Program-made: the position numbers and the translations under genes
DNA from: Liolophura sinensis
Lineage: Eukaryota > Mollusca > Polyplacophora > Chitonida > Chitonidae
DNA: 64,000 nucleotides
NCBI RefSeq assembly: GCF_032854445.1
Contig: NC_088295.1
Span: 72,880,028 to 72,944,027 of the forward strand
Direction of reading: 5' to 3'
Notes under the pieces: generated by a model
The model's database searches: none
The model's input: the letters and a program-made list of their open reading frames with translations, nothing else
Told to the model about the DNA's origin: nothing
In this document: positions 13,071 through 54,703 of the stretch, piece by piece
Layout of the letters: the number at the start of each line of letters is the position of its first letter
Position numbering within the stretch: the first letter of the stretch is position 1

Positions 13071-15177
13071 ATGACCTTAAACTCCAATCAAACACAGGAA
13101 AATCCCCAACAATCCCCCCCTCAAAAAAAACACTCCCTTTATTGTATCATTGATATGTCTTTTGGGAAATCATATCAACTGTAAAATCAACAGTATTTCG
13201 TGTGATTATATGTTGTCTTATAGTTGCTATTATTTATTATTATTTCTTTTAAGTCGCGGAAAAACAATTGAAAACAGGGAAATATTATTTATACATTGTG
13301 TAGCATCGCTCAATCAGATAAAATGGCATTGAGGATGTGTAACCTGAATATTCACTATATTACCACGCTTAAATGCATCAACATTTTTTTCCCGATGACT
13401 ACATGCTACATTCCGTATAACCGTCATACTGCTAGCACATTTTTCTATTTTTAGACCAATCAGTGATAAGTACATAATAATGAAGAGGTAGACATTAATG
13501 TTTACGGCAGTATTTTACAACTTAGTATTGCACCACTATACAGATTACTTTGGTGACGTGAAAGTTCTTTTCTTCTCTCTCTTTATCTAGCTCATCTATA
13601 CCGAATTTTCATCTTGTAACATAACTACCACTGCATGGTTTACCAGGTTTCGTAATTAATAAGGTTAATAAAGAGTACACTACCGCGGATATGACATAAT
13701 GAACGGGGGAGACATGATGTTCTCATCTCGCGCGTTTGATTACTTGTAGAATTTTGGTTATACAGATCCAATTAAGGCTGTAGTACACAAACCGGAAGTT
13801 TTGGAAGGTAGTAATTTGTGATTCACGAAGATTGCTTTAATATAGTGCACATGTCTACATATTGGTATATATGCAGCTGGCTAAAGCTCTTAGTCAATTT
13901 GACCCTTTATATAGCTTAGGGAGCGGGGATGTCTAGCATGCTGACCATTGACGTGTTTGCTGACGTCACAGGGGTCAGAACTGTTTATCAGTTAGTGACC
14001 GCTTTGGGTGAGTCACGGTCATCTAATGATCTTTTTGGCTTCTCCCATTAGCATAAAGGCGTCGTAAGAGCTGCGCATCGCTGAATTCTCTCCGATTACA
14101 GAGATATTATAGGCAAAGAGAGACAGTCCTAGTGCCTCGACAGCTAGCTTTATTACTGCAATCATTGAGGCGTCCCTACAGAGCCACTTGGCTGTAACAC
14201 ATTACCAATTGATCTGACCTCTTACCGGGACTACACCAAAAAAGATGCTCGCACCGACGTCATTACCTGCGTCATCACTAACTCGGAGGTGCCCGGGTCA
14301 AACTTTTTAGTAATTACAGATGGGAGAGGAGTCTATGTGCCATAGTCGAGAAGCCTTTGTGTCGCTGAGGAAGCCAACTGAAACCCCGGGAGCTGGTAAC
14401 CTAAGGCTGCCCGCATTGGTGGGTTTATAGGGGGCTTGTATAAAGTTCTTATTGCAGCTGGGTAGATCATAACACTGCAACTGACATTCTGTAGTCCTTT
14501 GAACACTCTGGAATGCTGCATTGGTTTACTGCTATAGAAAATGGCATGCTTGATGGACACTTTCAGCGTATTCTATCATTTGCAGTTTTTACTTGCCGAA
14601 CTGAATAAGTCTGCGCGCCATGCAGCCAGTATATTCGTTCACCTTGAGTTAAGAAATCGGAGCTGCAAATCCCATTCATTCAATGAATCCATCATCGATT
14701 GTTGTATACAATGTAGCTGTATTATGCCACTGAATTTTGTCCAGTTAAATGCATTCTTAAACATAAATTATACGTAGGAGAGCAAATTCATTGTGAACTT
14801 CATCGACAAGCAACTTTCTACCAGTGCACTGTCGGTATTATTAGATTTTCTTATCCAGTGGATACTCAGCATACGGTTATCCGCTGATTTATTAGGTGTA
14901 TGTCTAATTTGGATACCAAGAATACAAATCTCCTGATAATGTATATTCTACATTCGATATTTTATAGAAATAAGTCATAGTCCATATCTCTAAATAGATG
15001 TACAATTTATCTTTAGCACCTACACATCTGATGAAGGAAACCCTATATATACGGACACGCTTTAGTTTTAATCTGTGAAATGTATGGTAACTGACTGGCA
15101 AATTTGAATGCAAATTTCCCGATGCACCCCATTCTGATTGATGCCTGTGTATATGTCTTAAAAAATAACCTTGTACG
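13071..15177. other. Non-coding spacer with one CRE
   Basis: No gene is recognised. An exact TGACGTCA lies at 13961-13968 and a CGACGTCA near 14255. Open frames on both strands lack motifs. Confidence 0.5.
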
Positions 15178-15405
15178 GTATATTTGTGTACCCTATTTCT
15201 TCTAAAATTTGGGACACCCGATCTGCTCAGTTTAGTCTATATATATGTGATTCTAGCAAGAATATTGAGTTTCTTTTTTCTCACATGGTTAGACCATCTA
15301 ACCATCTAATGAACAATACACTCATATCTTTACTTTTCCAAAAGGCTGGTAAAGAAATGTGATATTCTACTTTCAACACTACTAATATCTGTCCAAAATT
15401 TTAGA
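15178..15405 (+). repeat. Dispersed repeat, copy B
   Basis: Second copy of the unclassified repeat at 8147-8345, same orientation. It contains ATCTTTACTTTTCCAAAAGG and GATATTCTACTTTCAACACT. ACCATCTAACCATCTAATGA is a small internal duplication not present in copy A. Confidence 0.7.
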
Positions 15406-15734
15406 AGAATTATGGTATTCTGACCGTTATCATGGCATACGTGTTGCACGTGAAGAATCCATATTGCACATAATCCTTATCCACCTAGATATATACAATC
15501 GTATTTGTGAGAAGTATAGTATGGCTAATTTTTGTAGTGTGCAGTCTCGTGTCCTTGGTCTTGTCGTGTATATGCATATCCGTATGTTTCGAATATTTCT
15601 TGTCCGCATTCATAAAAGGTGATTTTGTTTGCCCATGCAGTGCATTTGATGAGATTTTCTTACAGCGGATGAATTACACCTTTGGTATGTCATCTGTATA
15701 TGTATGTACATGCATTAATATGTCTCATCCAGCA

Positions 15735-16089
15735 GCCCCGCTCCGATAGTACAGTTAATAGACCGTCCGCTTCGGGAGCGGTAGATCCAGGGTTAAACCT
15801 AGATCGAGTCACACCTAAGACATTAAAAGAGGAAGTTGTAACTTCCTCGCTTGGCGTGCAGCATAAAGGGGATAGTACAACGACTGGTTGACACGTATCA
15901 GTATAATGGCTCGGGTAGAGCGACTTACTTGCCCTCGATAAGTCGTCTCATTGATGCAGCACCAGATAAAAGAGCGGTGGAAATCCGTCCTAGAACAAGG
16001 AGGCACATTACATGCACTCTAAGGACTTCTTCGTCGTCATATGACAGAAAAATTGTTACGACGAAAAACCCCAAGCACTCACTCACTCT
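15735..16089 (+). mobile_element. SINE-3, near full length, (ACTC)n tail
   Basis: A tRNA-like head (GATAGTACAGTTAATAGACC, then GGTAGATCCAGGGTTAAACC resembling a B box) is followed by a body with the palindrome GGAAGTTGTAACTTCC and a tail of CACTCACTCACTC. It is homologous to 28921-29291 and 63004-63283 on the other strand. The target duplication is not clear for this copy. Confidence 0.85.
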
Positions 16090-17451
16090 TATCCAGTATG
16101 TCTTTAACATTTAACATAAGAAGTTTTCCAGATATACCGGATTTTCATCTAGATTTAAGGGGATTTTTCATCAATCAAATGTTTCGTGAGCTTTTTTTCA
16201 TGCAATTTGTACACAATTTTCAATCTTCACATCATAGCAAACTATAGGCCTACATTAGTAAATTCTACAGCCATTTCAATTGTATACCTGTCGCTATGAC
16301 AACGATATCTACTCCGAACAATCCACATGGGTGTTTGGCTTTGTTATATCATTGTGCAATTCCTTTTGATTGATTGGTGATATTTAAGCCGCGTATTAAG
16401 TCTACAGAAATTCTGATGATAAAATTAATTCCTTATTTTACTGTGGGTACATGAGATCGTTACTTTTGACATATATGGTATTGATGCAGTTGATTGTCCA
16501 AGATGATAACAGGGCTCTTCATCATGTGGTTAATTAAAGAGATTAAATGCACAAAGAGAAAGTTTTAGCTGGTTCAACCTTTTTATTAACAGACTAAATG
16601 TTCTGGCTACTCTTCTCGTTAAGGCGCTTTGTTGCTGTGAAGAATGATCGTTTCTGTCTTGGCTTGTATAATGGCAAAGCCTCAATGGTGTCGATTTGCT
16701 CGCCAGGTTGCGGTTTCATTTTTTTCCCCGTCGATAATGGCAAAATCTATGTTTCAATGACGTCAGATGACGTCTGTTTACGTCATTACTTCACCGTCAA
16801 CTGTTAAAAATACGTCTGAAAGCCGATATGGATATCGACAACCCCGGATGTTGCAGACAAAAATCACATTTGGGTAAGGGATGGACACGCGTTATATTTT
16901 TGTTTAACGATTAACTTTGCATCCAAATCAAGTCATATTCTGGTAATGACGCATGTTCCTCTTTCATCTGATTCCTTGAAACCTTATCTTGTCTTTCCGT
17001 TTCCGCCAGACCTATCGGCAATCGGCAAAAGTGATAATAATAATAATAATAATAATATAATTCTCTCATATAAATTAAGGGATTTTTGTCACTCTTTATG
17101 GCTGTATTTACATGTACAGATGTTAAACATTAAGACAAAAAGTGATGTTTCACACCACGTAATTTCATATTCCTTTACAAATTGTATCGTATTTCCTGTT
17201 ATTAAGACAAAAATGCACACTTTGAAAGTTTGTACGTAACTTGCCATAGATCGGTGGTTTATTCTAGTCATTCCTCTGGATTACAGAAATATTTCTGAGC
17301 AATATCTGTTTATATCCTTATGATCGGAAAATGATATGATAGTTGTATGATTATATAACGGGTAGCTGTCTGTATGTCAGCCCTTTCGTTTACAGTCATG
17401 TATTTATTGCATGTTTTTTTTTTGTTTTGTTTTTTACGTTGTTTTCTGAAG
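16090..17451. other. Non-coding spacer with CRE cluster
   Basis: No gene is recognised. Three CRE-type sites sit close together: TGACGTCA at 16758-16765, TGACGTCT at 16768-16775 and TACGTCA near 16780. An (AAT)n microsatellite spans 17032-17055. Confidence 0.5.
17032..17055. repeat. (AAT)n microsatellite
   Basis: About eight AAT units in an AT-rich stretch. Confidence 0.9.
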
Positions 17452-17530
17452 AATATATTTCACTTAGGCCTATACGAGGGCGACCAGCATTATGGTGGCG
17501 AGAAACCGGACAGATCCTGGGAGAAACAAT
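17452..17530 (-). mobile_element. SINE-1 fragment
   Basis: AATATATTTCACTTAGGCC and ACCAGCATTATGGTGGCGAG, AAACCGGACAGATCCTGGG match the 3' half of SINE-1 in reverse. Both ends are lost. Confidence 0.75.
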
Positions 17531-17867
17531 CAGCGATCGTTCACCTCCCATGTATGGACACGGGAGACGTCCACACTCTTTTCCACGTCAGCACACAATG
17601 ACTGGATTTCCAAGATCATACTATGGCTACATACATGTATATGAGTGCATGGATGTGTGCCATATAAGTGTTTCCCGCACGAGAATTGTTTCCACAAGAT
17701 TGTACTTTGGATGAGTTACGTATAGAGTTGTACAGACTGTGTGTTGAAATACAGAAATATTTTCAGAAATCTGTTCTCTTAATTATTTTTTTTTGTGGGG
17801 ATAGGTAGATAACGATTATTCGTCATGAGGAAAAGTTAAGTCCCATAGCTGGTCTTCTCTGGTGCAG

Positions 17868-18035
17868 CTGTCTAAACCAACACGATTCAGATCACACACT
17901 AATGAGACCCTGGGTTCGAATCCATGCAGTTCCCAATGGCTAGGTTGAGTTTTTCAGGTACATGGCGGATTTTTCCCGTTTCCCCCACCAATAAACTTGA
18001 CCGCTGTCATTAAAGTGAAATATATATGAATGAAT
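17868..18035 (+). mobile_element. SINE-2, diverged
   Basis: A tRNA-like B box (GGGTTCGAATCC) at about 17912-17923 is followed by TTTTTCAGGTACATGGCGGA, then a body with TTTCCCCCACCAATAAACTT and GACCGCTGTCAT. It resembles the copy at 32005-32262. Confidence 0.65.
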
Positions 18036-19631
18036 ACGACTTAAATCGCCCATGGGAAATCTGTGGTTCGGCCGTTATTTCTCACCGAGAAGTCCCAAGA
18101 ATTAGAATATCAGTTGAGACACTGAGCGTCAAGCTAAGTAATCAATGAAATTTACAGCGTCGCTTTCTAAAAGCAATTGTAATCCGTCTTGCACAGGTGT
18201 GTTTCTGTAGCTCGCGATATAAACATGATTTGAATTAGAGGTACATAATTTGGTATGTATTTAAAGTGTATGTAAGATGCACATTATTGTGCCTGTGCAA
18301 ATTTTTTACAATTAATGTTTATCGCACAGGTACGTATCTTGTGTATTCAGCACTTCATGAAAATTATTACTGTGCAGTATAAGGAAGTATCTTTTACACG
18401 CTATCAGCGTAGTTGAAGCTGGCTAGTATGTGTTCCTATAATGGTGACGTCAGTAACATCGCAGTTTTTGTACACCTCCTGCCGCTTGAATATCACAAGT
18501 GCATGACACTAATTCAAACAGGCGAAAAGGCTTTGTAGACAGCTGACGGAAGGACTTTATCAGGCGATGTCTTTATCACTGACCTACTAAACTGAAGAAA
18601 ATTTGGGGAAATTCTAAAAGTTGTTAATCAGTGAACCACTCGATCTGACAATTAGTCAAGCAACAAACTTAAAAAGCAAACAATTTAAATGCTATGATAG
18701 TTTCTGGTGAATTTTACATACCGCTTGAACATAAATGTTGGGGTAGGCTGAATACAAAAATACAGCATCAATCAGCTGAACATGTTTACAGAATTAAACT
18801 ATACCAAGACTGCAGCATTGAGTGTAACACCAGTGAAGTCTTGACGACAATGTGATATTTGGAAAATGTTCACACGGATGTGGAAAAAATTGGACGACTT
18901 GGCAATTTACCTCAGTTGGGGTTTTATTCCAGCTGACACGTAAATACTTAATAAGTAGCAATATGCACGTCCTCTATTACATACAAGACGTCACTCCCTG
19001 AAGAAAGTTTGCATGTGCATCGGTTGTTTGGTTTTCAAAGTGGCAATAACCGTACGACCTTTCAGGAAAGCTTTCAGATCAATACTCTGGCTACATGACA
19101 GTAATGGTTGTTTTGTGAGAGTACTTAGACGTGTCTCAGGCTTGAGTCGCTACGTGATTGGTGTATCGGTGATCCTATTCTCTATTTAACTATGACGTCA
19201 TGGCTGATAAACCTTTGGCGCGTCAGGTACTGATCGGGGTTGATTTCATGTAGGTACTTCAAGAACTGTAAAAGACGACTGAGTACGCACGTATGCTGGA
19301 TGGATGTAGTTTCAACTTTTCACAGTGTATGTGTCAAATCAGGTATTCGCAACCGACATGGACCGAGTCAAAAATCGCACGCCTAATCTCCCAAAACAAT
19401 GTTCAACACAAAACACCAAAGAACTAAGAAAATACGTATAAAGTATGTAATTAGGATAGATTCAGGCAAAGAGAAGCGCCACTTCATTTCACAACATGAA
19501 TTACCTTCTGAATATAGAACATGTATAGATCATGTCTGAAAGTTGAAGCATCATGTCTCACCAGCATAACAAACAACTTACAACACAGAGAATAATCAAT
19601 CTGCTATAACAGAACATTGTCAACAATTTGG
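18036..19631. other. Non-coding spacer with CREs
   Basis: No gene is recognised. TGACGTCA lies at 18445-18452 and 19193-19200, and AGACGTCACT is near 18986. Confidence 0.5.
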
Positions 19632-19772
19632 TTTTTGGTTTGTATATTTTACTTCACAAAAACGTCTTATACAAAAAGGTGACATTTAGATGCGCATAGC
19701 CACATTCGTGTTATAGAATGTTAGCAATTAAGGGTAATTTTTTTGATGTGACTAAGTAGTTTTGTAGTCCAA
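19632..19772 (+). repeat. 141-bp inverted repeat, left arm
   Basis: Perfect reverse complement of 21703-21843, starting TTTTTGGTTTGTATATTTTA and ending TTTTGTAGTCCAA. Weaker match continues inwards to about 19792 (AGCAATATCCGCATTT). Confidence 0.95.
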
Positions 19773-19792
19773 TTTCAGCAATATCCGCATTT

Positions 19793-21680
19793 CGAAAAGC
19801 TGTTATCACGAACGTTCATGTTATTTAACTTCATCTATCTTTGTATGCTGGAACACAACGTTCAGACCGCGGAATCAGTTTAAATGTGGGGTTTTGAGTG
19901 ACACTGGCTGATTTTGATAGCACATCTGATGGGTAGGCAAGGGCTACATATATGTCATATATGTCACGTTTTTCTGCAACTGAACAGCTGGATTTTATCG
20001 GCAGTATTCTCATTTGATTTCAAAAGACTTGAAACAGGTTGAGCGAAATGTTCTTCTGTAAAAGCACAATGATGTCAAGAGCTCCGAAGTATATGGTCTC
20101 TTTAGGATCTATCTGGGAAGTGATTCTACCTTGAAACATTATGTCTACAATTTTTAAGCAGCTAATTCCGTTTAAGCCGTTGTGCTTGGGGTTGTAGTAG
20201 TTACTATTTAAACCAACAAGCTGTCAAGAAGTGGGATTTCACCGTTTACGTGTAATAAATTGCAATTATCATCACTGCATGTTTTTTTTGTTTTTTTTTA
20301 ATCTAACTTAGCTACATTGACAAGAGGCCCTATTTCACCGGTTACGTGTAATCATACTGTCGTCGCTCCTCTGGTTTTTACTTTGTAAGCCTACTATGTT
20401 ATGTACTTGCTTCTTGGAAGTCGAGATTCAGAGAGGTTGATTTCATTTGCTCTCTTTTGGACAACCGCATGAGACCGACTGCAATCCTCAACTGTCAACA
20501 TTTTCCACAGCTACGGTAGTGAATCCAATATCATGTTAGATTTTTTTAATGTACTTACCTTGAAAAGTTGAAGGAAGTTAAACTTGTAATCTGTGTGGCG
20601 GTGCAGTATTATATCTTGCTTGTTTAGGAAGTGCACATTTTGCAACAAACAACGTCATCTATTGCATTGTTAATAGGAGTGTACAACATCACATTGGAAG
20701 GCAACTTTTAGATACTTTGTTTATTAATTATTTTTTGGTTGCAGTTCAACTTCGTTAATATGCAGGGAAATGAGCTAAGTGTGTCAGTTTTATGATTTCC
20801 ACAAAATATATGAAGTAAGGCCTATAAAGTCTTGGAACATCGCACATTAAATTTCTAAGTTTAGTACTCAATAGCGGATTTAATTTGTCGTGTGAAATTT
20901 TATAACCAAGGGATTATTCATGTTCGGAATTCACTCTTCCCTAATGAGTTAATGTTAATCATATAACATTTCATGCCAAAGCAAATGTCGAGTTCTGTTG
21001 GACGCACTCTATTTCCACAGCATTGATCTAGGGTCATCTAGTTAGGATGACGGCTTGGCACGGCGAGATCTGTGTACATGTATTCACCAGTGAGCGAGTG
21101 ACATCATCGATCGATGGTACCATGTCGAGCACAAGTCGTACGATACGTGACGTCATTTATTTCCTCGCGTGCATGCCTGTGTATATATGGTAACCAAGGA
21201 AAGACAGAGGAATCCATTTATGGCCTGCGGAAACAAGCCGGCACCAGTTCGTCCCAGAATATCGCATTACTCGATGAAAATACCCCAGAGAACATTATTC
21301 TTATTACAACCGGAATTGTTATGGGCAATGTTGTTATTTTGAGTTCAGTTAATTCTGTCGACGGAAATTTGGTTGGTTTCTGAAATGTCGAACATTAGGC
21401 TACGGTATGAAAATAGAAAGCTGATATATCTTCGTTTACAATACTATGAGACAGGGAGGAAATTTGTAGACATCTGGAATTAAAGGGCAATTAGTATTTT
21501 TGATTTTGATCCTGATTTATCATGTTTTTCACCTAATAATAACATTGTTTTTCACATATTTCGAGTATGTATAGGATATTCAGCAGATTGACACTAGTTA
21601 ATTAAATTCGTGTTATGTAATTGTGTACATTTATCTAATTCGCTTAACCCGGGGTTACAGGGACAGTATAAAAACGGTAT
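19793..21680. other. Interior between the inverted repeats
   Basis: About 1.9 kb with no transposase or other recognisable protein. Two short near-copies of TTTCACCGTTTACGTGTAAT lie near 20237 and 20333. TGACGTCA is at 21148-21155. An 89-codon open frame at 21114-21383 has no family motif. Confidence 0.6.
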
Positions 21681-21702
21681 AAAAATGCGGCTATTGCTGG
21701 AG

Positions 21703-21843
21703 TTGGACTACAAAACTACTTAGTCACATCAAAAAAATTACCCTTAATTGCTAACATTCTATAACACGAATGTGGCTATGCGCATCTAAATGTCACCTTT
21801 TTGTATAAGACGTTTTTGTGAAGTAAAATATACAAACCAAAAA
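21703..21843 (-). repeat. 141-bp inverted repeat, right arm
   Basis: Perfect reverse complement of the left arm over 141 bp, including a 7-A run matching a 7-T run. Weaker similarity extends inwards to about 21681. Confidence 0.95.
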
Positions 21844-24800
21844 TGTGTTTCAATGCGATGACGTTGCAGTTCCATTCAGCCCAAAAAGCAGAATATTTAA
21901 TATATTTGTACCGTATATGCATGCATTCACCAACTTTGGTGCGCTATACTGACAATTCCCGTAAATCAAACGCACGCCTTTTTTTCTGAGCCAAAGGCCT
22001 GATTAAAAAGTGTATTTATACTTGTGAATGACATTGATTTCAATCGAAAGCAAGCCGGCACGAATAGGCCGGCAACTTTACCACCAAGCCCCAGTAAAAA
22101 CACGGATGCTTCTTTCCACCGATTCTCTTTCATACGAGTTAAATGCTTGTATTAGTCAATCTACACCAACCCTTCTCCGACATGCATAAATTTAATGTTG
22201 AATTCTGGATAAATTGTTACAATGTTCTTTGTTGACCCGTGGTTCTCCAGGCAAAAGCGTCAACAAGTGAGCTAAACGTCTATTTCAATTTTTTTTCAGG
22301 CAGGCTTAAATAGTCAATAACACCTCCGTTGACATATTTAAGATACAGCAAATCGTCTCTAAGGCGATTTAGAGCTTCAGAGCTTCCGGGGCCTTGGCGG
22401 CCCCTGAACTGTCGCCTTTTTTACTGGGACTCTTGTCCCGGTCCCCCCCTCCCCCGCCACCTTTGAAATTATTTATTATTTTGAGCAGGGTAAAACGCAT
22501 GAGAAAAATTGCATTCTATGTAGACGTATACATTACACACATTAGGTGCCAGTGCACAGCACGTTTCTGTCATGTAAATATATTTTTTCAAAACTAGTTA
22601 AAGCAGCGGTTATAAATGCGTTGTTAGACCGATCCTCATTGCAAAGTACTTTGAGGAAAGAAAACCGATCCTGACGTCATTTACTCCTATGAGCCACCAT
22701 ATAAACCAATATTTCAAATGCATTTTACTCGGTTAAAAACAATCCTAAAATAAATCCAAACATTTTCTTCAACAGTTTTACGTGGAGTGGGAGTGGGGAT
22801 GGGGGGGGGGGGGGGGGGGCAAAATATATGCTCGCCCCCCCCACTGGTATGCCCCCCCCGCTTCCTACGCCCCTGTTTAATATCAATATTCAGTTGAACA
22901 CTTGCAATAAATGAAAGCGTAACTGAGATATTTATGTATCGTTATACCCAATCTAGAGTTATGGCATGGTATTGTGTTTACTATAAGCATGAACCTTTCA
23001 ATGTTTCAATGTTTAAACGGCAAGCGTTGTGGACTGCACAGACCGCTGGTTTCTTTGACATCATTTTCAACTGTGCCTCACTTTGTTTTACTTACCGCTG
23101 GTGATTAAGCACGTACTACGTAACGGTAAAGAAAGAATATCCCGGTGTGACCTACTTGTCCCGTTATGTCGCTAGCTGATCAAGTCATTTAGCAATTTTC
23201 CTCTCCAGAACCACGGCACGAATCGAGCTCAAATTTGATATGCTATTGCAGCATTACAGGATATATGGAAAAGTATTACAAAACGAAGAGTATGGTTTTA
23301 AGAAGAAATGAATAAAGATATTCCAAAGCAATGAGAATCATTTTTTGCATAAAATAATTTATATTTTTTAATAACCCCTCTGTTTTATGCCTATTTTCGG
23401 TCAGCTTTCAAAAAATATTCGGAAATGATGTCATCGATAAACATACTGGGAATGAGGGAGCAGTTTGCGTCCCCAATTCGCGCTTCCCATCCCCACATCA
23501 CAATTTTGTTGACAGCTATTATCGTTGACGTTACCTCAAGGCTACTTAATTTCTACTTGGCTGACCCCAGGGGCCTTAGGGAAACCGTAGTTATTTCTAC
23601 ACCTTAAGAAGATAGCTGAGAAACTTTTATTGTACTTTTATATGTCAGGCCACCTCATTCATTCCTTTTTAAGAAATAAAAGCCAAATGTTCCATATATC
23701 CTTTAAGGCGTTGAATTCCAATGAAAACTGTAGATCTCGTCATGGGTCACGTGACGTGACGTGACGAGTTTGGCTTGAAAAGCTCGGTTGAAATCTCGTC
23801 TGAGGGAATTGGACATGTGGTATTCTTGTACCGAAAATTTATTCCGATTTACCAGAGGAATTAATCTCAAATCTATATAGGCATCAGATATATTAAACAT
23901 CTATTAACAACCCGACGGCGAATTTGTATCGTTTTCCGATATCTTGTGGAGGATTGATATGATTGCATGTGTTGTCTTATATACATAATCATTTAGTATA
24001 AGGAACACTTTGAATGACAATATTTGACCAGCATCATTGTCATTTAGCAAATTATTTATTGCAGGAATCAAGAACGTTGATGGCCTACTTATTTTTTGTT
24101 TGCGGTCAAGATTATAGAAGATCAGCAAGTGGGTGGTTCAATATGCTCCACTTCTGAATAGCATTATTAAACATGTTAGTGTTATAACTGTCGATTATAT
24201 GTCCGAGGGATAAAACGTCAGTGATTAATGCTTGTTTGCTTATCAGATCGATACCCGATCAATTCTGGAAATGATATCATTTGCTTGACAAAAGTGTTAT
24301 GGTACTATCAAATAGATATAGGATACCAAAACATACCAAGGCAAAAGAAGGTTATTTCATTAAGTAGGCTACCATGTGTATTCCATGGTCCCGTTTTCCC
24401 ACAAACGTATAATGGTATACATTACGTATAAACATATCCGCGCCAAGGACAATGGAGTTTTCTAGATTTTCTAGTCTGTGAACTCATTATAATCTATAAT
24501 GAATGAGTATGAATTGAATGCACTATATAATTTTTATGAATTTGGGGAGATTTTTTCTTAAACTTATGTCTAACACCAGTATTATATTAAAATATACAAC
24601 ATACGCTATTGCCACCTTGGGATCGCAATGAAAGTATTTATTTTTAGTTCCTTTTGGGGTACGTGTTTATTACGTTTGAATAAGTTTGAAAGTAATACAG
24701 GGATTACACACATATAAAATTACACAGGAATCGTTAGCACAGGGGATGTACAAAAACTCTCGGTACGTCATACTGTTACCGAACAAAGAGGCGATGGGAC

Positions 24801-25989
24801 AAAAAAAAAAAAAGAGAAAAAAAAAGGCCATTGACATTTTCACTGTAGTGTGTTTGACTGATGAGCGACGTCATATCTGAGTCTGCACCACGCGACTATA
24901 TATGACCATTGCATCATGTGACGTGAAAGCAGTTAATTTTTCATGCATCCGGATTAGCGGAATTCTGATTAGAGCATTGACAAACACCGCTGACTGACAC
25001 ACGGATGACGTCACAAGTGCGTCATCAGTTTGACTCGGATCAATGATCATTCTTATGCCAGTATTTATATCCCCACAACGATCAATGCTCCGGCCAACTG
25101 GCTTTCTCAATCAAGTGGGCAGGCATATAGATTGATTCTGATGAAAACAGAATGCTTTCGATTATCTAACATTTCCGCCAAAGCTTCCACATCTTTTTGT
25201 TTGTAATGAAACAGCTGAGATTCTTCCGTTTTGTAACTGTTTTTGTATTTGGAAGGACAATCATAACGAACACATGCAGAATCCACGTAAATTCCTAATT
25301 AATATGTCCTAGTAGACAATATAGCCAAAGACTTTCATGGAGTTTACATTCGCCAATTCCATGGTCGTAACTTGTCCTGTGAATAATTGTTTAACAATGT
25401 TCAATGAATAATTGTTAAACAATTAATAAACACAGACAGACAGGCAACAAGGTAACTACTGCGAACATTTTCCCAGAAAGTGGATGTTTCCACTGAATTC
25501 GTTCCAAAATTGATTTTTTCCGGAACATTTATCAACAATAACCTACTTATAACCTTATTTTGAAACTTGTTCAGATATTTATATATTTTGTTTGATAGGC
25601 TGTCAGTAGCATTTTCAAGGATAAGCTGTACTATATGATGGCGGATAGAGGCGATGGGAAACCACCGCGTCTTGCCAAGTATATATGACACACCTCCTGA
25701 GAAAAGGATTCTACGCAAGACCTTACTGACCAAGAACTGTTAGCCTGTTGTCTCGACCACTTCACTAGCAATGCCACTTAAATATTCACCACTTAAATAT
25801 AGAACCTAGCCCCCAAAATTAGAAGTTGTATAATTAAAATTATGCCGAACATCAATCCTTAATTTAAACTGCCCATACAGATCTTGTAACGTTACAGTAA
25901 AGGGGCGACGACACAGACGTTTGGGGCAAATTGCAAAGTTTCGATGCTAATAAGATTGTAATCAATGTAAACAGTTCGTGGTCCTATTT
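21844..25989. other. Non-coding spacer
   Basis: No gene is recognised. It contains a possible DNA-transposon end with a G19 tract (22801-22876), exact CREs at 22672-22679 and 25006-25013, and a CACGTG plus TGACGTGACG cluster near 23748-23766. Confidence 0.5.
22801..22876. mobile_element. Possible hAT-like element end with G19 tract
   Basis: A run of 19 G is followed by C-rich runs and CTTCCTACGCCCCTG at 22861-22875. The last part is a common terminal sequence of hAT-type non-autonomous elements (CAGGGGCGTAGGAAG in reverse). The matching left end is not identified. Confidence 0.4.
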
Positions 25990-26250: not shown

Positions 26251-26261
26251 TGGTCCTATTT

Positions 26262-28908
26262 CAAACTGATATATAAATACTGGTGAACTAATTTAAGCTA
26301 TATCCTTGAAGACATATCAATGAATGTCAACACTAAACAAGGTCCGATATCTATTTTACTCCTTTGTAAACCTGTCAGATGTGGCTACATCATATCATGC
26401 ATGATGTGGCCCCGAATCTTCATTATACATTTTTAGAATTTTCTTGTTTTAAGAGACCACGATACTTCATTAGATTCCTACAAAAAACGTCATTACCATG
26501 TTTTCAATTACATGAATCTTGTCACGGCACAATGTCGGCATAAAGTAGTCAGTCCTGGAGAGATGCGCCAAATTCTCAGATGAGACTTGAGAGTGGACAA
26601 AGGTAGTTAAGTCCGTTGGCCAAATCTCCCCGCGTGAAAGTAAAGAAGTTATAAGAACCGAAAAATTAAACATTAAATTCTGAAGCCATATTTTAGACAA
26701 TTTGAGGTATATGATTCCTAATGACTCTTATATACACACGCCTAATACAATAAGGGATCTCGTACACACCACTGGGCGACTTATCAGGGCAGCCAAATGT
26801 ATATAGCCTATGGTTCAGGGAAGGCATTCATGTTTGCCTTTGTAATGGCTACTTCACGGAAAACAATGGCTCAACCCCATTATCAATGGGACAGGAACTT
26901 TTCTGGACTGCAATTCTTCCATTGTTTTCGTGATCTTCCGCGGTGGTAATAAACGGACGACCGAGCGTTAATGTCATCTCGCATGAAATTCCCTGATGGC
27001 CATGCTCTTGTCTTTCACAAATATGACGTATGCAATACATGCACGGGAGAGTTCGCCAGTAACTCGTTAAAGGCCGGTGGTTTATTCCTCGCATTTCGGT
27101 TTCCTCTATCATGCCCACACTGGCCACCGCAGAATAAGTGAAAAATTCGTGAATTTTACGTTAAAAAACAAGCAATATATTGTGAAATCGCAACCCACCC
27201 ATTTATACTGTATATATTTTGGGGCTTACTGCAACACGGGGATGTCATGGCGAAAGTACGAGGATCAGCAGAGAAGGATTAGCCAGATGTCGCCTGTTCT
27301 ACATAGCGATAACCTTAAACAACCGATGATAAACGATGCCACCTATCGTGCTAGGACATCCAGTTGGTTTGTTTTTCAACGTGTATTAACAGTTAGTGTT
27401 ACATGCAATCCATACATGTAGCTCTCGCATTTCGGTTGTCGTTCTAAGTTAAAATTTGAACGACACCTGGATTCACTAGTTTCACCAATCACCAGATCCA
27501 TATACCCGCCTCACTTTCAGGCACACTTGTGAATGACTGGTGTTTAACTAGCGGATTTCCCCCTCACATATGGTGGCAGTCGGGTTTATGCATGGAATAA
27601 ACCGAAATGTGGGGCAAACCAAGACTTCCATCTGGCAACACTCTACACAGAAAGAGCCCTTTAGAAGCAGCGAGACTTCAGACAAAGTATTTATTTTTAT
27701 AATCATGCCTAGATATATAGGTGTTAAGATCGGTTGATGTCTTTGTCTAAGACTGAAACCGGGTAACCCATTAGATTGCAACCGACCGTATTGTTGGAAA
27801 CGATATCGAAAATCAAATTCGATCTCAGGATCGGTCATATAAGAGGCCACGCAGTGTACCCCTTCCCCTCTACCGATAACGGAGAAACATTACACCAGGC
27901 TCATTAACGCAGTGTTTGTGGTAACCACCGTATACAATGCACTGAACACTTTTTTGACGAATCTTCCATATATGGCTATATAAGAAGGATTTGAACGAAT
28001 TTCTAAATGAATTCTGTTATCCTGCATGCGCTTATTTGACACTGATATTCAGTTTTGAAACTTTGATATCAGGTTCGACTGCACTGGTTAATCACGTGAA
28101 ATATTGCACGTCCAGGAACAATGCTTCTAGAAAAAACGTGATATGGTGTGCTCATCTTAATGGTGTATGTATGATGAATTAGGTTCTTAACCAAAGTCAT
28201 CTTTTTTTTTAAAGAACACACTTCTATAGATGGGTTAAAGATTTCCATGTGATGTATACATAACATCCATCACACGCGCATGCAATGAATAGTTAAAAAC
28301 ACGGCACTGACGTCACGTTTGACGTCATCGTTCTTTTGATGTTGATAACCATCGACAATCGATACCTAACATGTCTGGCATGTGATAATCTATTAAAAGA
28401 AAGATCTGACAAGAAAACAGTGTTGTGGTGGATAACACATTTATTAAGAGACTATATATGTCTATACCGGCGTGCAAGATTGTATGGTGTATTAGCATAA
28501 TGAATTAAGCTTGCTTATGGGGTGTAATAGCCAATTCAGTCTCACTGGGTTGCATACACATCTAGTGTGTACATAATGAGTAATGTGAAACCACACCATA
28601 CACTAAATATGTAATGTTTATTTGATGTATATATATTTCTCACTAGTTAAATGTCAATTGCATTGATATGTCAATATCTGGCTTGAATGCATGGCTGACT
28701 TTGGTTTAAGTGGTCTGGGGTTAAATACCTGATGAGGTTTGTTGGTTTCCAAACGTGACTGCCCGAGTTGCATAACAAAAAATGCGGTGGTGGAAAGCCA
28801 CGCTATGGTAGCCATCCACTTAAGAAAACAAGTGACACAAGAAGCTTCTTGGCACCAAATCCTGGAGCACAATGGAGTCAGGGATATATTGAAAGTTTCA
28901 ATCCCAAA
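26262..28908. other. Non-coding spacer
   Basis: No gene is recognised. It holds a SINE-2-like fragment at about 27065-27150 and two exact CREs 12 bp apart, at 28308-28315 and 28320-28327. Confidence 0.5.
27065..27150 (+). mobile_element. SINE-2-like fragment
   Basis: AAGGCCGGTGGTTTATTCCT then TTTCGGTTTCCTCTATCATG and ACACTGGCCACCGCAGAATA resemble the 3' half of the copy at 32005-32262. Confidence 0.6.
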
Positions 28909-28920
28909 GAATGGGATTGA

Positions 28921-29291
28921 GTGAGTGAGTGAGTGAGTGAGTGCTTGGGGGTTTAACGTCGTACTCAACAATTTTTCAGTCATAGGACGACGAAGGAATC
29001 CTTAGGGTAAATGTACGTGTAAAGTGCCTTGTTGCAGGACGGATTTCCACCGCTCTTTTATTTAGTGCTGCTTCACTGAGACGACTTACCGAAGGCAAGT
29101 AAGCTCCCCGCCCGAGCCATTATACTGATACGGGTCAACCAGTCGTTGCACTATCCCCTTCATGCTGAACGCCAAGCGAGGAAGTTACAACTTCCACTTT
29201 TCAAGTCTTAGGTGTGACTCGATCAAGGATTGATCCTGGATCTACTGGTCCCGAAGCGGACTCTCTACCAACTGCTCTATCCGAGCTGGTC
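28921..29291 (-). mobile_element. SINE-3, full length (371 bp), with target-site duplication
   Basis: The plus strand opens with the (GTGA)n tail and ends with the head (on minus: CGACCAGCTCGGATAGAGCA, then GTTGGTAGAGAGTCCGC). The exact 12-bp repeat GAATGGGATTGA lies at 28909-28920 and 29292-29303, which fixes both ends. The head has A-box-like and B-box-like (GGATCAATCC) segments, so it is probably tRNA-derived. Confidence 0.93.
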
Positions 29292-29303
29292 GAATGGGAT
29301 TGA

Positions 29304-30980
29304 ACTCAGTGACTAAAAGGCATGCGCATTAAAGTGAAAGCAGCTTAAAACGAAGTAAAATTCATAAAATGGACAACTGAAAACTATGCGTAGAAAATGT
29401 GAACCGTTGTGGCCCATATCTAGCTACTATGACGTCACAGGAAGTTTACCCCACGCACTCAGACGGCAGCTGTTAATTTAGCTATAGAGCTTCATTTAAA
29501 TGTAATGCTTAAATAACGATCACAAAAATTTCACCAGTGGGTGAATATAAAGGATAGAAAAAGGTGATGCGACGTCAGAGTAGCGTGCATGCTTTGCAGT
29601 ATGGTTCGACAATAAATCCCACTAGAATACTTTGAATGTATTTAATTCCATCTTAAAAATACTAGAAGTATGAGTAAACAGTCTGTCTGGTGATGTTTAT
29701 TTCAAAATTAAGCTAACCATGCGATCACCCTTCGTTGTATAACGTAAACATTCATCTGCACGGAGGGATGTTTGAGTCGACTTCTATGCAGTTGTACCGT
29801 TCCCACGTGGCTACCATTAAGCTATACTTCAAGCCAACAGATTATTCAAACTGAATCCACATTAACGTATAACTCTTTTATCTGGATGTGGAATTGCCCT
29901 TTTCTGGCGGAAGAGCTTTTCATTGCAATGTGAATGATCAATGCTCAGGTATTTTGGTTTTCTCCCACCACGTATGCCGAAGGAGTTTGAATTGTTATAT
30001 TTATACACAAGCTAAGTGCATGTAACGGTGATACGCGAGCAATCTGAAGCAATTATCTACGAGGAGACTGGAGCGTTATCGGGCCGGTTTTGCACAATGT
30101 TCGCGTTGGTGCTCACATCATCAGTGATTAAACGCTCCTCAACAGACATTAAACATCAACACACTGGCTATTTTTAGCGTTGCTGGTATATAAATAGTTA
30201 TCTCTGGCTTTATATAGAACTGATCCAGTTTATTTTCGGGCCGCGCTTTATTTCCGATGGTCCCGCGTTGTCCATATATAACACACAAAACAACTTTAAA
30301 GGACGTCACTACCCTGGCATCACGTGGCTGCTGGAGTCAGGCTGTAGAGTGAGTCAGAAGTGCACGCTATCTGTACTATAAGACAGTGTAACTCCAGCAA
30401 ATTGGCCAGCACCTCCCCGACTCCCTGCTCCACCTCGACCACAATCTTGTAGATATCACCTCACCATCCACTATGCATTGCATTTTTTTCATTCTTGTGC
30501 AGGTTACTCTTCATACTCAAATACAATTTGATGGGTGTGATTAATGGTTATTGCGCAAGCGTCAAATAGGGGCCTCCAGCTGGGAACATGCATGCAACTG
30601 GCCTTACACATTGCTTTGAATTCCGCCAGTGTGTCGCTATATTCTCCGGACGATGCAGACTACAAAGCCTGCTTCTTTTCTCCCGCTGCGGATTTCTACC
30701 CACGACATTGCGTGCACAAATCTTGAACTCCAGACACGACAAGGTCATTTACGAAATAGAGCTGTAGACGTCTCTATAGTTCACTATGTACATGGAGTGT
30801 CATGCTTCCAAACCACGAATTCGACGACAACTCGGATGTTTTTGTCGGGTTGTTCCATCAGCGTGTTTATGGAATTATTTGATGAGGATGGCTTCCATAT
30901 ATTTAAAAAAATTAGCGGTTACATGTGTGTTCTCAAGGCTCGATATAAGTGAATTAGTGACTGTGTGTGTGGCGTTTAGA
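29304..30980. other. Non-coding spacer
   Basis: No gene is recognised. An exact CRE lies at 29430-29437. A TATA-like ATATATA at 30274-30280 is followed by GGACGTCACT at 30301-30310, which could be a promoter. Confidence 0.4.
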
Positions 30981-31415
30981 TTTCAAATAATTGGTTCGAG
31001 AAATTAAGCGCTCTATTTTCAAAATGCGTGTTACTAAGCCTTCAAACGATTGGTTCAAGAAGGGTTCGATTATACATGTGCGTTATAAAGTTTTGAAATG
31101 ATTAGTCCGAGACATGTTTGGCGAATACATGTGTTTTATGAACTTTTCAAATAATTGGTTCAAGGAGTGCTTAAATACATGCGGGCTATAAAGCTTCTAA
31201 AAGATTGGTTCGAGAAATGCGTGATTATATGCAAATCTTTTATAAAGCATCCAACTCATTGATTTAGGAAGTGCTTGACTTCATGTGTGTCATAAAGCTT
31301 TCAAATAATGGGTTCGAGCAATTCTTGGGCCAGATGCTTGTGTGTTCGAAGAGGGTTTGGCTAGAATGTTGTGTGCATGTGTTACAGAGTCCTCAAACGA
31401 TGGGTTCAAGGCATA
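30981..31415. repeat. Degenerate minisatellite, about 8 units of 50-60 bp (last spacing about 90 bp)
   Basis: The motif TTTCAAATAATTGGTTCGAG recurs in altered form near 30981, 31041, 31091, 31145, 31195, 31249, 31300 and 31391. Related ATACATGTGTGTTATAAAGC segments lie between the copies. Copies differ at many sites, so the array is old. Confidence 0.75.
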
Positions 31416-31736
31416 CTGAACAAAAAAAGAAACTTCACATGTGATGTTACTTTATGCCCCAAACATACAAATATAGAACAAAATGTGAAGTGATCTCAAT
31501 GGCCACTCCATGACGCCAATAAACACACCCCTACCCAACCGCCTCTGGTTCCACGGTAGGTGCAATTGTGCTCACCGTAGACGTTCATTACGGTTTACCT
31601 CTGTCAGAACAGACCCAACATATGCACGTTGGGCACTAAGATGGACACGACAACTAAGCAGTGCGTTACTGGTTGACATTGCGGTGGATTTGGATGTGGA
31701 GCCATCCACTACATCCTTTTTTGTACCTCATGTTCA

Positions 31737-31826
31737 TGGTAAAGAATGTACAGATGGTTTCAGGTTTCTTCCCACCATATTACTGGCCGTGGTCGTAAAA
31801 TTGAAATGTTCTTGTACATTTGAAGT
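31737..31826 (+). mobile_element. SINE-1 fragment
   Basis: ACAGATGGTTTCAGGTTTCT, TCCCACCATATTACTGGCCG and TGAAATGTTCTTG match the 3' half of SINE-1. The fragment is diverged and has no tail. Confidence 0.6.
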
Positions 31827-32004
31827 ATTTGAAGAGCAATCATTGGAACAACGGTACATAATTAAATTATAGCAAAGTTTCTATTTTGCTTCATTTGACC
31901 GCAAATGTTTTTAGATAGGGTTTTGGTTTCTGTATGGTGACTTCATCTCACCAACAGACGCCTCATGCTGAAGCACCTATCCCAATAAATGAGTTCCTAG
32001 GGCC

Positions 32005-32262
32005 TCCTTGGTGAAGACCGATGGTTAAGGCGCTGGCTCGCTGCGACTTTAAAGGCCTTTGACCAAATGAGGTGGCGTGTTCGAATCGAGCTTTCGCTGT
32101 TTGGGCTGCGGTTTTAAGTGAAGAGGTTAGTCAGGTACATGTCGAAGGCCAGTGGTTTATCCCGGGTTTTCTGGTTTCCTCCACCCATAAACCTGGCCGC
32201 CCTCATATAAGTAAAACATTCCTGAGTGTATAGAGTTAAACACCTATCAACCAATCAGGGAA
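32005..32262 (+). mobile_element. SINE-2, near full length
   Basis: The tRNA-like head AGGGCCTCCTTGGTGAAGAC, GATGGTTAAGGCGCTGGCTC with B box GTTCGAATCGA is followed by GGTTTTCTGGTTTCCTCCAC, CATAAACCTGGCCGCCCTCA and the end AAACACCTATCAACCAATCA. The 3' half is related to SINE-1 but the head differs. Confidence 0.8.
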
Positions 32263-32340
32263 TCAGTTAAGAGGCGTTTATATGACCATTATAAGGAAAC
32301 ACGGGTGTCGCCCGCCCATCACATAAAGGCAAAACACGTA

Positions 32341-32343
<3 letters not shown>

Positions 32344-32380
<37 letters not shown>
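32344..32380. repeat. (GT)n microsatellite
   Basis: About 18 uninterrupted GT units, followed by an A/T-rich AAATAAAAAT-like stretch. Confidence 0.95.
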
Positions 32381-32381
<1 letters not shown>

Positions 32382-32529
32382 TTATATAAATTAGTTTTAG
32401 CAATAAAAATAATTAAAATAAAAATAAAATAGCTACATGAATTAAAATAGTTGGGTCTAATTCAAGAAATGTTTGGATGCATGCACGGGGTTCCTACATC
32501 ATTCAAAGCGAGAGACAGAAAGTTGAGGG

Positions 32530-32640
32530 AGAGAAACAGAGCTGAGTTGTAAGTTACGTGATCCGTATATCACGAGGCACACGAGGTGCAGCGGGTTCAA
32601 ACCTGGTCTTAGACAATCATCTAGATTTCTCCGCTCTCAT
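32530..32640 (+). mobile_element. tRNA-like SINE remnant (tentative)
   Basis: GAGCTGAGTTGTAAGTTACG followed by a B-box-like GCGGGTTCAAACCTGG resembles a decayed tRNA-derived head. No matching copy was found in the window. Confidence 0.3.
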
Positions 32641-34544
32641 TAATTGTTTGATGTAGGACAAAAAGCGGTCGATGGTGTCAACTTACACAGTCATACATTC
32701 GGTGAATACCACATTTCTTCCCATAGTAAACATAAGTGTTTCGTTTTCAAACATATTTATTCTACAATTTAGAAAGGCATCGTTGTGTTTATTTAAACAA
32801 ATTAAGTGTAAAATGCATGCAACATGCATGTAAACGTTTTTCCAGCCTGCAACAGGAATGTGTTTAAAGACTGAACATTATTTTTAGTGTGAACCATGCA
32901 TATGCATGCAATTTCGCGTAATTCATTTGCGCCACACGGGACAGAGTTCATCGGCTGTAACTTTGAACAGGGCGTTAAGACTGGTTTCCTGTAACCATAA
33001 AGTTGATCGCCATCGTACAAATGAAAATTCTTGAGGATGGTGTTGGGCAATATAAATAACCTAATAAGAATATATATCTTAATATATCTTAATACTTGCT
33101 AGTCTTCGCTAAGGAATAAAGTTGTTCCTTTCATTTCTAATACGATATACACGATCCATGGGCAAACTGTGTTAATAAAAGGAACATGGTACAGATATGC
33201 TTGGAAATGGGGTGTAATGTAACGTCAATAATATATCTATATATGAGCAATGTGTGCATAAATATGGCACGAAAGCCTTGTTTGATTCATCTAACTGCAT
33301 ATGTACCGTACTATATATTCCCGGAGGTACTGATAGGGCATTAGTAATGTTAAGTTTAACAAAACGCGAATTTATGGATTGAGTGTACAGAAAAATATAT
33401 AATCGTCAGCACACCTCATTTATACTGGATATGTATTCAAAATAGCTTACTTGTATACTCAGTTCTGGCATTCACATTTTGAATTCTTTATCTGACATAT
33501 CTTTATACCCGTACATTATACAGCACACTCGATATACGTTGACCGTTTTATCGATTGCCTGCATTCTTATACCTATATATTTATGTACAGAATGCAGTGA
33601 ACAATTAACGAGAGATGATCATTTACATTTGGAATTATTCACACCAGTTAAGGTATTGTGTTAGTATTTTCATACTTTTCACTCCTTCATAAAACATGCA
33701 TTGAAACTGGAAAACTATCCTTTAAATTTGAAGTGTAGATGCGTATTTATATTGTCAAGAATTCGGAAGTATATATGTATAAAATGGCCCGTGCATTTTC
33801 ATGAATTGTTGAGCTTAGAAATGGAAGTTGAGATGATGTTGGTATAGTGGTGCATAGAGTAAGAGTGGTGGGGGCAGCGCATGATTCCCTTGTCTCCTGA
33901 CCTCGCTTGGCTTAAACTAGGGTTTGTATTGGCACGGAGAGGGAAGCGTTCAGATGGGTATGACGTCAATGGGCTATTTAAATTCCCGGGGATAAATGAA
34001 GAGAATTCAGTCACCGGTTTACAGTTCTTTAGCTCGGGTGCTGATGGGTCGATCCATATAGTGGCCATCAACGCCCGAGATATGGAAAACGTGCCAAATG
34101 CCGGCGTGTTTCATCGATGAGCTGCCTATACAGTCCAGGCCGTGTCTTCCCGGCAAGTCATTGATCTTCATACACTTCTTGGCACAGGCGTCCAAAAGAC
34201 GGTTGTAACTTTACACCACCATCTTATATATTCAGAGTTGCACGTCATAACCAACTTCCTGATTTCTTCTAAATAATGATAAACTTCCTGATTACATCCT
34301 AATAGCTTCTATTATACGACGGAAGCGGTGCGGCGCATTAATGATCCACACTTCCCTTATGTCTCCAATCGAGGAATGCATATTTCTTCTACATGCGCGA
34401 TATCTTGATACACAGTCATATATATTATAATAAAAGTTTTGGTTTATCCTAAGTTTGTATTAATTACGTTAATTGCATGGAATTAAGATACAATGAAATT
34501 CAACAGTTTTTCCATTTTTGTTAGATTGTTAGGGTTTACCACGG

Positions 34545-34652
34545 TCTCTGCTCAATTTACTCCCACAACGATGCTGGCCTCCCACGTATGTACCTATAAA
34601 TATGCGTCTTAAAATAGAGTACGTCGTAAACACCAATAAAATAAATAAAATA
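34545..34652 (+). mobile_element. SINE-1 3' fragment
   Basis: ATTTACTCCCACAACGATGC, TGGCCTCCCACGTATG and GTCGTAAACACCAATAAAAT match the SINE-1 3' half and its tail. Confidence 0.65.
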
Positions 34653-36057
34653 TAGCAAAACATATTTCGTATACTATCTAAAAACGATTGTGTAATGTGT
34701 GTATCAGCGGTAGTAAACAAAATAATGTGGATGTGCATTTTTGCCACAACACTGTGTACCACTAGTACACAGAGGATTTTAGAGAGTAATAGGCTTAAAG
34801 GCCTGCTACTTTCAATTTATATATGAACAGGTATAAATAAACCAGATATTCGGTATATCAGTAAAGGAAGTGGCCAAATTCGTGGAAGTGCAAAGAAAGC
34901 AAAAAGGAAAAAAAACTTCCAGCGAATTTTATCACGAGTACCTCAAAACTTCGTTATTGTAATTAAACCACAGTGGTAGCTGGATTCGAACACGCGACCT
35001 CACTGTTCTAGTGCCGCTCAGCACGGGCGAGAACATGGGCTGTTGTATAAAGGCATTGCCTGTCACTTTGTTAATTAGTTTTAATAGAATACTGGGGGGA
35101 CTCATGTTTAACATAATTAACTGTTCGAAAACATGACCACTAGGACTCCATGCAATTTCGCTTCGATATGGCTGAATGCAATAAAGCCAATGTTGTCATT
35201 AAGCCATAATCATTCATATTTCTATTACTGTCCTGGATATTTATGGGCTACCATAACATGACATGCAGAAAACCCGTCTTCATTCATAGGCTAGGTGACT
35301 TGGGCTAAATTCTACAAACAACTTTATTGTAATTTGCGATGATCACTGTTAAATAATAGGCATAGTCAATGACTCAATAGGGCAGGCGTAGGCTATATTT
35401 ATTAAGATATAGACTACCGCTATTTATCCATTTTCGCCTTTAGGCTGATTTTCCCTGTAGGCCTATGGCCTACATCCATATGCTATAGGCCTACACGTAT
35501 TACATCGATGGGCTTATATTTGTTTAAATAAGTTAGGCTACAATGTAAAAAGTAACCGCGTATGCGTCAAGTAGCTGTTGTAGAAGAGGAAGACAAGGTT
35601 ATACCGGAAGGCATAAAACCTTTCTCATATACTCTCATCTTGGAGCATAGAAATTACTCGGTTCATTTATATCCGGGAGCCGGCATCTACGTCATAGATA
35701 TGTCCACAAAAGCATGTGTCAGCAGTGGACAGATCAAAATATCATCGGCCGGCTCCGGGGGCTTGTGACTGTGGGCCGGGTGTTTGCATGTTCTATGAAT
35801 GAACATATTCGCTGTGCAATCTGTTGTCCTCAGATAAAACGAACAGGCGGCGGTTATTTCTTGTGTTTTTTGTTTTTCTTTGTTCTTTTTAGTAAAGGAA
35901 AAGCAGTGCAAATGGGGTGACTGTTTGAACTTTGCGGTTTTCCGGTCTTGTACACTGTCGGCCTACCGGTAGATAAAATTAACCCGTTGAAGATTCCTAG
36001 CAACCACCAGTTGCGAACTAGCGGCTAGGAATCGTGTGCTATGTCTCGAGCGGGTAC

Positions 36058-36077
36058 TGACGTCACGGCTTGACGTC
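36058..36077. promoter_or_regulatory. Tandem CRE in the presumed SIK promoter
   Basis: TGACGTCA at 36058-36065 and TGACGTC at 36071-36077 lie about 160 bp before the SIK start codon, in a stretch richer in CpG than the flanks. Mammalian SIK1 is a known CREB target. The transcription start site here is not known. Confidence 0.6.
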
Positions 36078-36131
36078 TGTACCAGTTTAATAATCGTAAA
36101 AGAGTGGGGAGTGAGCAAGGGAAAGCCATGA

Positions 36132-54703
<18,572 letters not shown>

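Follow-up and report, generated by a model that had tools for sequence, protein, structure and literature searches.

The window analysed here is a 64-kb stretch of the genome of the chiton Liolophura sinensis (C1:72880028-72944027 of an assembly of 609.46 Mb in 632 contigs; coordinates without a contig name refer to the window). It carries a U2AF1-like gene at its left end and, to the right of a spacer of about 32 kb, a gene that we identify by sequence as the salt-inducible kinase SIK3. The spacer contains a field of exact copies of TGACGTCA, the palindromic cyclic AMP (cAMP) response element (CRE). The initial annotation had assigned the right-hand gene to the SIK kinases. This assignment is confirmed, and the field stops just before the first coding exon of the gene (36225). 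The assignment to SIK3 follows from a match to the UBA_SIK3 domain (PF23312, 27.7 bits at a cut-off of 27) and from the best solved-structure match of the kinase C-lobe exon, for which the SIK3 structures 8r4o and 8oku (4.5e-17, 5.4e-17) scored better than MARK4 (4.8e-15), although this comparison involves one exon of 42 residues. The SIK3 open frames also contain a T-loop motif and the sequence FREGRRASD; we take the T-loop threonine to be the LKB1 site and the RRAS serine to be the PKA/14-3-3 site.

Counting exact copies of TGACGTCA, we found 13 in the window. Twelve of them are the field sites of the initial annotation, all of which were recovered at the coordinates it had given, and the single copy it had reported elsewhere lies at 39691. 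None of 100 dinucleotide-preserving shuffles of the window gave 13 or more copies (mean 0.83, maximum 3). For composition tests the field was defined as 13901-36150, and here the 12 copies compare with 0.26 expected from 200 shuffles and 0.31 from a Markov formula, in line with the earlier estimate of about 0.3 copies in 22 kb. The excess had been described as tens of times above chance. This holds for the dinucleotide expectation (about 40-fold), but relative to the rate of the motif in this genome the excess is about 10-fold. The other CG-centred 8-base palindromes (a set of 64) occur at most three times each in the same interval; thus, the excess of TGACGTCA is not a general CpG effect, and a general CpG or ACGT enrichment was rejected. 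With 160 kb of the L. sinensis genome as background, TGACGTCA had the smallest Poisson P (12 vs 5, P 1.1e-10) of all 8-mers that occur at least five times in the field; the field holds 14,009 distinct 8-mers.

The CpG observed/expected ratio (o/e) was 0.78-0.92 in the 4-kb bins of the field and 0.31-0.45 across 36-56 kb, which is the SIK3 gene body; these low values may reflect the pattern expected of gene-body methylation. The scarcity of TGACGTCA to the right of the field is therefore partly due to CpG-poor base composition, and to this extent the contrast with the remainder of the window, on which the initial annotation had relied, is weakened. No copy was found at 4.1-13.9 kb, beside U2AF1, and none over a further 20 kb beyond the left edge of the window. 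The full sites occupy the SIK3-side two thirds of the spacer.

Genome-wide, we counted 32,558 copies of TGACGTCA (53.4 per Mb), which corresponds to 1.18 expected per 22.1 kb, and 13,651 copies of the reversed-sequence control ACTGCAGT. This richness comes partly from arrays and repeats. Among the first 100 sites of chromosome C1, which span 2.5 Mb and thus a small part of the genome, 38 belong to four arrays. The other 62 correspond to 24.8 per Mb, or 0.55 in 22.1 kb, and the densest non-array 22.1-kb stretch holds five copies. The 12 copies of the field far exceed what either rate predicts. Three of the four arrays are regularly spaced. The fourth (C1:977671-990409, nine sites in 12.7 kb) is not regular throughout, but all 15 pairs among six fetched pieces are 92-96% identical, and thus it is a repeat and no rival to the field. 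About one copy of TGACGTCA per unit is seen in the arrays at C1:699702-700402 (units of ~77 bp), 1436285-1437108 (~51 bp), and 977671-990409 (1.3-2.2 kb). Twenty random 5-kb pieces (100 kb in total) contained four copies vs 1.16 expected. The 10 random pieces with a CpG o/e of at least 0.65 (50 kb) contained one copy vs 0.81 and thus had no excess, so that the CpG richness of the spacer is not by itself a sufficient explanation of the field. It had also been considered that unrelated DNA of the same genome might reach a similar density. In the sampled part of the genome this was not found: the dense spots are tandem arrays or repeats (C1:977-990 kb, C7:34.21 Mb, part of C1:53.68-53.70 Mb), and the best non-repeat stretch has five copies in 20 kb. 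The C7 spot (C7:34209091-34213090) contains five copies in 4 kb within local repeats, and C1:53675001-53705000, which was picked for close CRE pairs, has seven in 30 kb, partly in an inverted repeat.

The flanks of the field sites were then compared with the genome. The joined flanks of four sites matched only themselves, and the same was true for the flanks of six further places, except for a dispersed repeat near 29430 (40 of 90 candidates scored). The surroundings of 21148 matched themselves, their own inverted end copy, and a small repeat some 750 bp off (40 of 403 candidates scored). Among the candidates scored (40 of 90 and 40 of 403 in the last two comparisons), no other genomic copies were found for 11 of the 12 field sites. 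The site at 22672 lies in a dispersed repeat, of which 10 copies were fetched; nine cover the site position and six of these have TGACGTCA. When the flanks were compared in pairs, they shared the CRE doublets and otherwise only short matches at chance level. On the candidates scored, we therefore rejected a repeat-family origin of the field for 11 of the 12 sites and accepted it for 22672 alone, so that the earlier statement that the copies have different flanks and do not form one repeat family needs correction at this site.

Two inverted 161-bp copies (19632-19792 and 21683-21843) that are 98% identical and 1.9 kb apart were observed within the field; no further genomic copy of this sequence was found among the 40 of 403 candidates scored. 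The right copy adjoins a high-copy dispersed repeat (21844-22788), as if the inverted duplication went with the insertion.

The TGACGT half-site occurs 47 times in the field vs 9.4 expected, and 24 of the 47 represent both strands of the 12 palindromes. Of the remaining 23, four are no more than 60 bp from a palindrome; 1.4 would be expected, and the excess is weak (P 0.047). CRE-like words (up to two mismatches) were counted within 30 bp of 16 palindromes of two SIK genes, namely SIK3 and the paralogue described below, with 22672 excluded, 39691 included, and the pair 28308/28320 counted twice. Here, we found 12 such words vs 3.0 in simulation, and none of 3,000 simulations gave as many. An offset of 12 bp accounts for 5 of the 12 entries, one pair being counted twice. 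There are 730 close pairs genome-wide, and the first 50 listed include no gap of 4; a 12-bp spacing rule is kept as a lead. Three doublets, at 28308, at 36058, and upstream of the SIK-like paralogue, take the form TGACGTCACG-N2/3-TKACGTC. This pattern, which was derived from those three, has nine matches in 609 Mb, three of them before the two SIK genes; since it was built from known sites, it likewise serves as a lead. The other six places (4 kb each) contain one to five full sites, the five being those of C7:34209091-34213090.

Among CRE pairs elsewhere in the genome, the arrangement TGACGTCA-N6-TGACGTCA occurs 92 times. An identical ATAAAA/TTTTAT spacer is shared by 16 of 50 listed pairs, which suggests a dispersed element bearing a CRE pair. 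At C1:30.97-30.98 Mb (L046 6159-6188, L047 3671-3698), CRE pairs 7.5 kb apart lie near a CACGTG E-box; the combination of CRE and E-box is reminiscent of clock-gene promoters.

A genome search with the first exon of SIK3 identified two exons besides that of SIK3. One, at C1:85713918-85714019, is SIK-like (71% identity, 34 residues); the other, at C5:8053111 (69% over 26 residues), we take to be SNRK-like. Judged by start codons or domain starts, the paralogue and control exons are probably first exons. The first 20 kb upstream of the SIK paralogue contain four copies of TGACGTCA, at distances of about 3.7, 11.2, 13.3, and 15.3 kb, where the dinucleotides predict 0.29; the second 20 kb contain none. 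The paralogue had been selected before its sites were counted, and its excess thus counts as a small independent test in favour, four sites being few. One copy each was found in the 20 kb upstream of the CRTC gene and of the SNRK-like gene. The CRTC gene was recognized by TORC_N (71.7 bits, positions 1-33 of 63) and the CREB gene by pKID (30.8 bits, positions 6-23 of 41), both at a cut-off of 25. These matches indicate that the genome has CREB and CRTC genes beside its SIK genes.

Table 1. Coordinates of the CRE sites and of the gene features in the window
Feature	Position	Strand	Remarks
TGACGTCA	13961..13968	.	half-site TGACGTG 12 bp upstream; flanks without other genomic copy
TGACGTCA followed by TGACGTCT (+10) and TTACGTCA (+20), homotypic cluster	16758..16765	.	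flanks without other copy
TGACGTCA	18445..18452	.	flanks without other genomic copy
TGACGTCA	19193..19200	.	flanks without other genomic copy
TGACGTCA flanked by two 161-bp inverted copies (19632-19792, 21683-21843)	21148..21155	.	
TGACGTCA within dispersed repeat whose family has the motif	22672..22679	.	
TGACGTCA, TGCGTCA close by	25006..25013	.	no second flank copy found
Doublet TGACGTCA-CGTT-TGACGTCA, exact sites 12 bp apart	28308..28327	.	no second flank copy found
TGACGTCA, ~30 bp beyond dispersed repeat ending near 29399	29430..29437	.	
TGACGTCA	33961..33968	.	no second flank copy found
Doublet TGACGTCA-CGGCT-TGACGTCT	36058..36078	.	site centre 163 bp upstream of SIK3 ATG; no second flank copy found
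TGACGTCA inside SIK3 intron	39691..39698	.	
SIK3 first coding exon	36225..36350	+	GTAAGA donor; end read from sequence; ATG alternatively 36231
Open frame with SIK3 VAIK-lysine exon	37872..38075	+	Pkinase 1e-08
Open frame with SIK3 activation-loop exon	49665..49904	+	Pkinase 5.9e-09
Open frame with SIK3 kinase C-lobe exon (frame residues 38-79)	50264..50566	+	SIK3 4.5e-17
Long SIK3 C-terminal open frame, UBA_SIK3 match and RRAS site	52670..54703	+	PF23312 2.8e-06
Open frame with first coding exon of divergent U2AF1-like neighbour	4060..4131	-	further exons within 2545-2658 and 184-441

The left neighbour was assigned less firmly. Its zinc-finger frame (L032) weakly matched the U2AF small subunit (5.4e-4, a single solved match), the frame 184-441 searched alone gave no match, and by their motifs the frames 2545-2658 and 4060-4131 presumably belong to a U2AF1-like gene. 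Ten open frames were scanned with Pfam (six from the spacer, two of SIK3 itself, and two next to SIK3 exons); MRNIP (36138-36668, minus strand) and CueP (30620-30952) scored under the cut-off and were rejected. A 22-bp tandem repeat of CTTAGGCTAGCATTCATCTGAA (8 copies, 96% matches) lies at 5518-5696. Further out, 12-20 kb beyond the left edge of the window, the minus strand has three neighbouring long frames of 343, 294, and 328 aa (L031 275-1303, 3617-4498, 7326-8309), which have a MIRW...H[IT]YEEIPD[VL]IP stretch in common and gave no Pfam match at E 0.1.

The initial annotation had proposed a long cAMP-responsive control region for the SIK gene. We consider the chances about even that the field is a dispersed CREB/ATF-responsive control region of SIK3, which makes this the most likely of the readings considered; such a region would close a negative feedback. 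The first rank of TGACGTCA among the field 8-mers, some excess at the paralogue, and the presence of CRTC and CREB genes are in line with the proposal; the identity of the gene, SIK3 and not SIK1, and an enrichment of only about 10-fold over the genome rate are not. If the proposal is correct, the SIK3-side two thirds of the spacer would offer many high-affinity sites for CREB/ATF-type basic leucine zipper (bZIP) dimers. Judged by its position, the doublet at 36058 probably lies in the proximal promoter or 5' untranslated region of SIK3, and the remaining field sites are distal, in about ten separate singles, doublets, or small clusters. A rise in cAMP would switch on PKA, which would phosphorylate CREB and inhibit existing SIK, so that CRTC would move into the nucleus. 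CREB-CRTC at the proximal doublet and at the distal sites would then increase SIK3 transcription, and when PKA activity drops, the newly made SIK3 would phosphorylate CRTC and end the response. Of this scheme, the sequence shows the sites, their excess and their place ahead of SIK3, the lesser excess at the paralogue, and the CREB, CRTC, and SIK genes; we infer that the sites would be bound, that their role would be activating and not another one, that SIK3 would be their target, and that the feedback would result. A bolder generalization, which we put forward tentatively, is that chitons, and perhaps other invertebrates without a separate SIK1, may use SIK3 together with the SIK1/2-like sister gene for the CREB-to-SIK feedback, by way of long distributed multi-CRE regions with a shared rare doublet instead of a single promoter CRE.

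Several observations weigh against a CREB-driven control region of SIK3. The genome-wide count of TGACGTCA is 4.6 times the dinucleotide expectation (11.6 per Mb, from the 100-kb random sample), and when the 8-mers are scored on the field's own dinucleotides, CCCCCCCC outranks TGACGTCA, which is then second. C1:30967001-30987000, which was also picked for CRE pairs, has five copies of TGACGTCA at three places in 20 kb with dissimilar flanks; CRE-rich stretches are thus not exclusive to SIK genes. Half-sites are also in excess (21 vs 8.9) over the 20 kb that adjoin the window on its left, where there is no full site; their excess is thus non-specific and proved weaker than it had first seemed. 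A CRE-like word within 30 bp accompanies 9 of 16 sites of the SIK genes, 1 of 6 sites outside them, and 9 of 12 sites of the pair-picked regions, numbers too small to separate the groups. The four sites of the paralogue are a modest excess over the genome rate (1.07 per 20 kb), and the SNRK-like upstream stretch is a weak control, being CpG-poor (o/e 0.40). Moreover, the CREB-target precedent invoked by the initial annotation concerns mammalian SIK1, and the gene found here is SIK3; constitutive Sik1 is described in PMC10190946 as low compared with Sik2 and Sik3.

The genome-wide abundance of the motif speaks for the idea that the clustering is neutral or due to chance, the genome being TGACGTCA-rich and the field being helped by a CpG-rich spacer and motif-bearing mobile elements. 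The repeat-borne site at 22672 and the commonness of motif-bearing arrays are compatible with this idea, and the region was found by scanning for oddities, which brings in a look-elsewhere effect. On the other hand, at 53.4 per Mb the Poisson P of the field is 5e-9, so that about 1e-4 such stretches are expected among the 27,571 of the genome, and at the non-array rate the corresponding value is 3e-8; since counts are over-dispersed, these figures are lower limits. The ten CpG-richer random pieces also argue against it, and we regard a neutral cluster as improbable. Several ATF/CREB/JUN dimers bind TGACGTCA, and the sites might therefore serve another bZIP dimer (ATF2/JUN, ATF1/CREM, CREB3-type) or a repressive or stress role, which would mean SIK3 regulation without cAMP feedback. 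The neighbouring TGACGTCT and TTACGTCA are compatible with mixed dimers as well, but neither the AP-1 word TGACTCA (3 vs 3.04) nor TGACGCAA (0 vs 0.74) is enriched in the field, and an excess that recurs upstream of another SIK gene speaks for the SIK/CRTC/CREB circuit. We rate this explanation as rather unlikely.

It is also conceivable that the region controls U2AF1, an unannotated non-coding gene of the spacer, or a distant gene instead of SIK3. U2AF1 is transcribed divergently out of the same spacer, a one-mismatch site TGACGTCG lies at 4212 near its first coding exon, and enhancers are able to skip genes. However, the full sites begin 9.8 kb from the first coding exon of U2AF1 and reach that of SIK3, none of the six spacer open frames (103-139 aa) has a Pfam match above the cut-off, and CpG o/e stays at 0.77-0.92 across 8-36 kb without the drop seen in the SIK3 body and at 1-4 kb. 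We consider a target other than SIK3 very unlikely.

A CREB-driven SIK3 would matter for the timing of cAMP responses. SIK feedback on CREB/CRTC sets the duration of the cAMP signal, and in both mice and flies SIK3 takes part in the control of sleep and of circadian rhythm (PMC8057676, PMC7250853). The papers listed for salt-inducible kinases mostly concern mammals or flies, those listed for molluscs and for chiton CRE/CREB are unrelated, and among them we saw no CRE field at SIK3, which is no proof of its absence in print. If SIK3 is heavily CREB-driven in a mollusc, the feedback would be older and wired more widely than the mammalian SIK1 case suggests, and the region would offer a natural system with many sites for studying the combined effect of distributed CREs where, as in the invertebrates of Smith et al., they are not bound to the transcription start.

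Homotypic clusters are enhancers that hold many copies of one binding site. The chiton field resembles them in that it repeats one motif and includes several doublets or small clusters within 30 bp; it differs in that its sites are spread over 22 kb in about ten places and not confined to one enhancer of a few hundred bp. With the CREs of vertebrates, for which Smith et al. (2007) reported a start-site bias (PMC1796609), the field shares one doublet near the SIK3 start, whereas most of its sites are distal. In that study no such bias was seen in sea squirt, fly, and worm, and a distributed arrangement with distal CREs is thus nothing unusual in an invertebrate. The closest parallel is mammalian SIK1. 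In mammals, CREB drives SIK1 via a conserved promoter CRE (PMC10190946) and SIK1 then limits the response, a negative feedback (PMC3898689); SIKs keep CRTC cytoplasmic, and PKA inhibits SIK and activates CREB (PMC8057676). The chiton locus is similar in that a canonical CRE lies close to the start of a SIK gene, in a genome with CREB, CRTC, and SIK. It differs in that the gene is SIK3, in that 12 exact sites over 22 kb take the place of one conserved promoter CRE, and in that the cAMP response is putative here. As in the mammalian CREB-CRTC-SIK1 loop, the feedback predicted for the chiton would operate via phosphorylation of CRTC.

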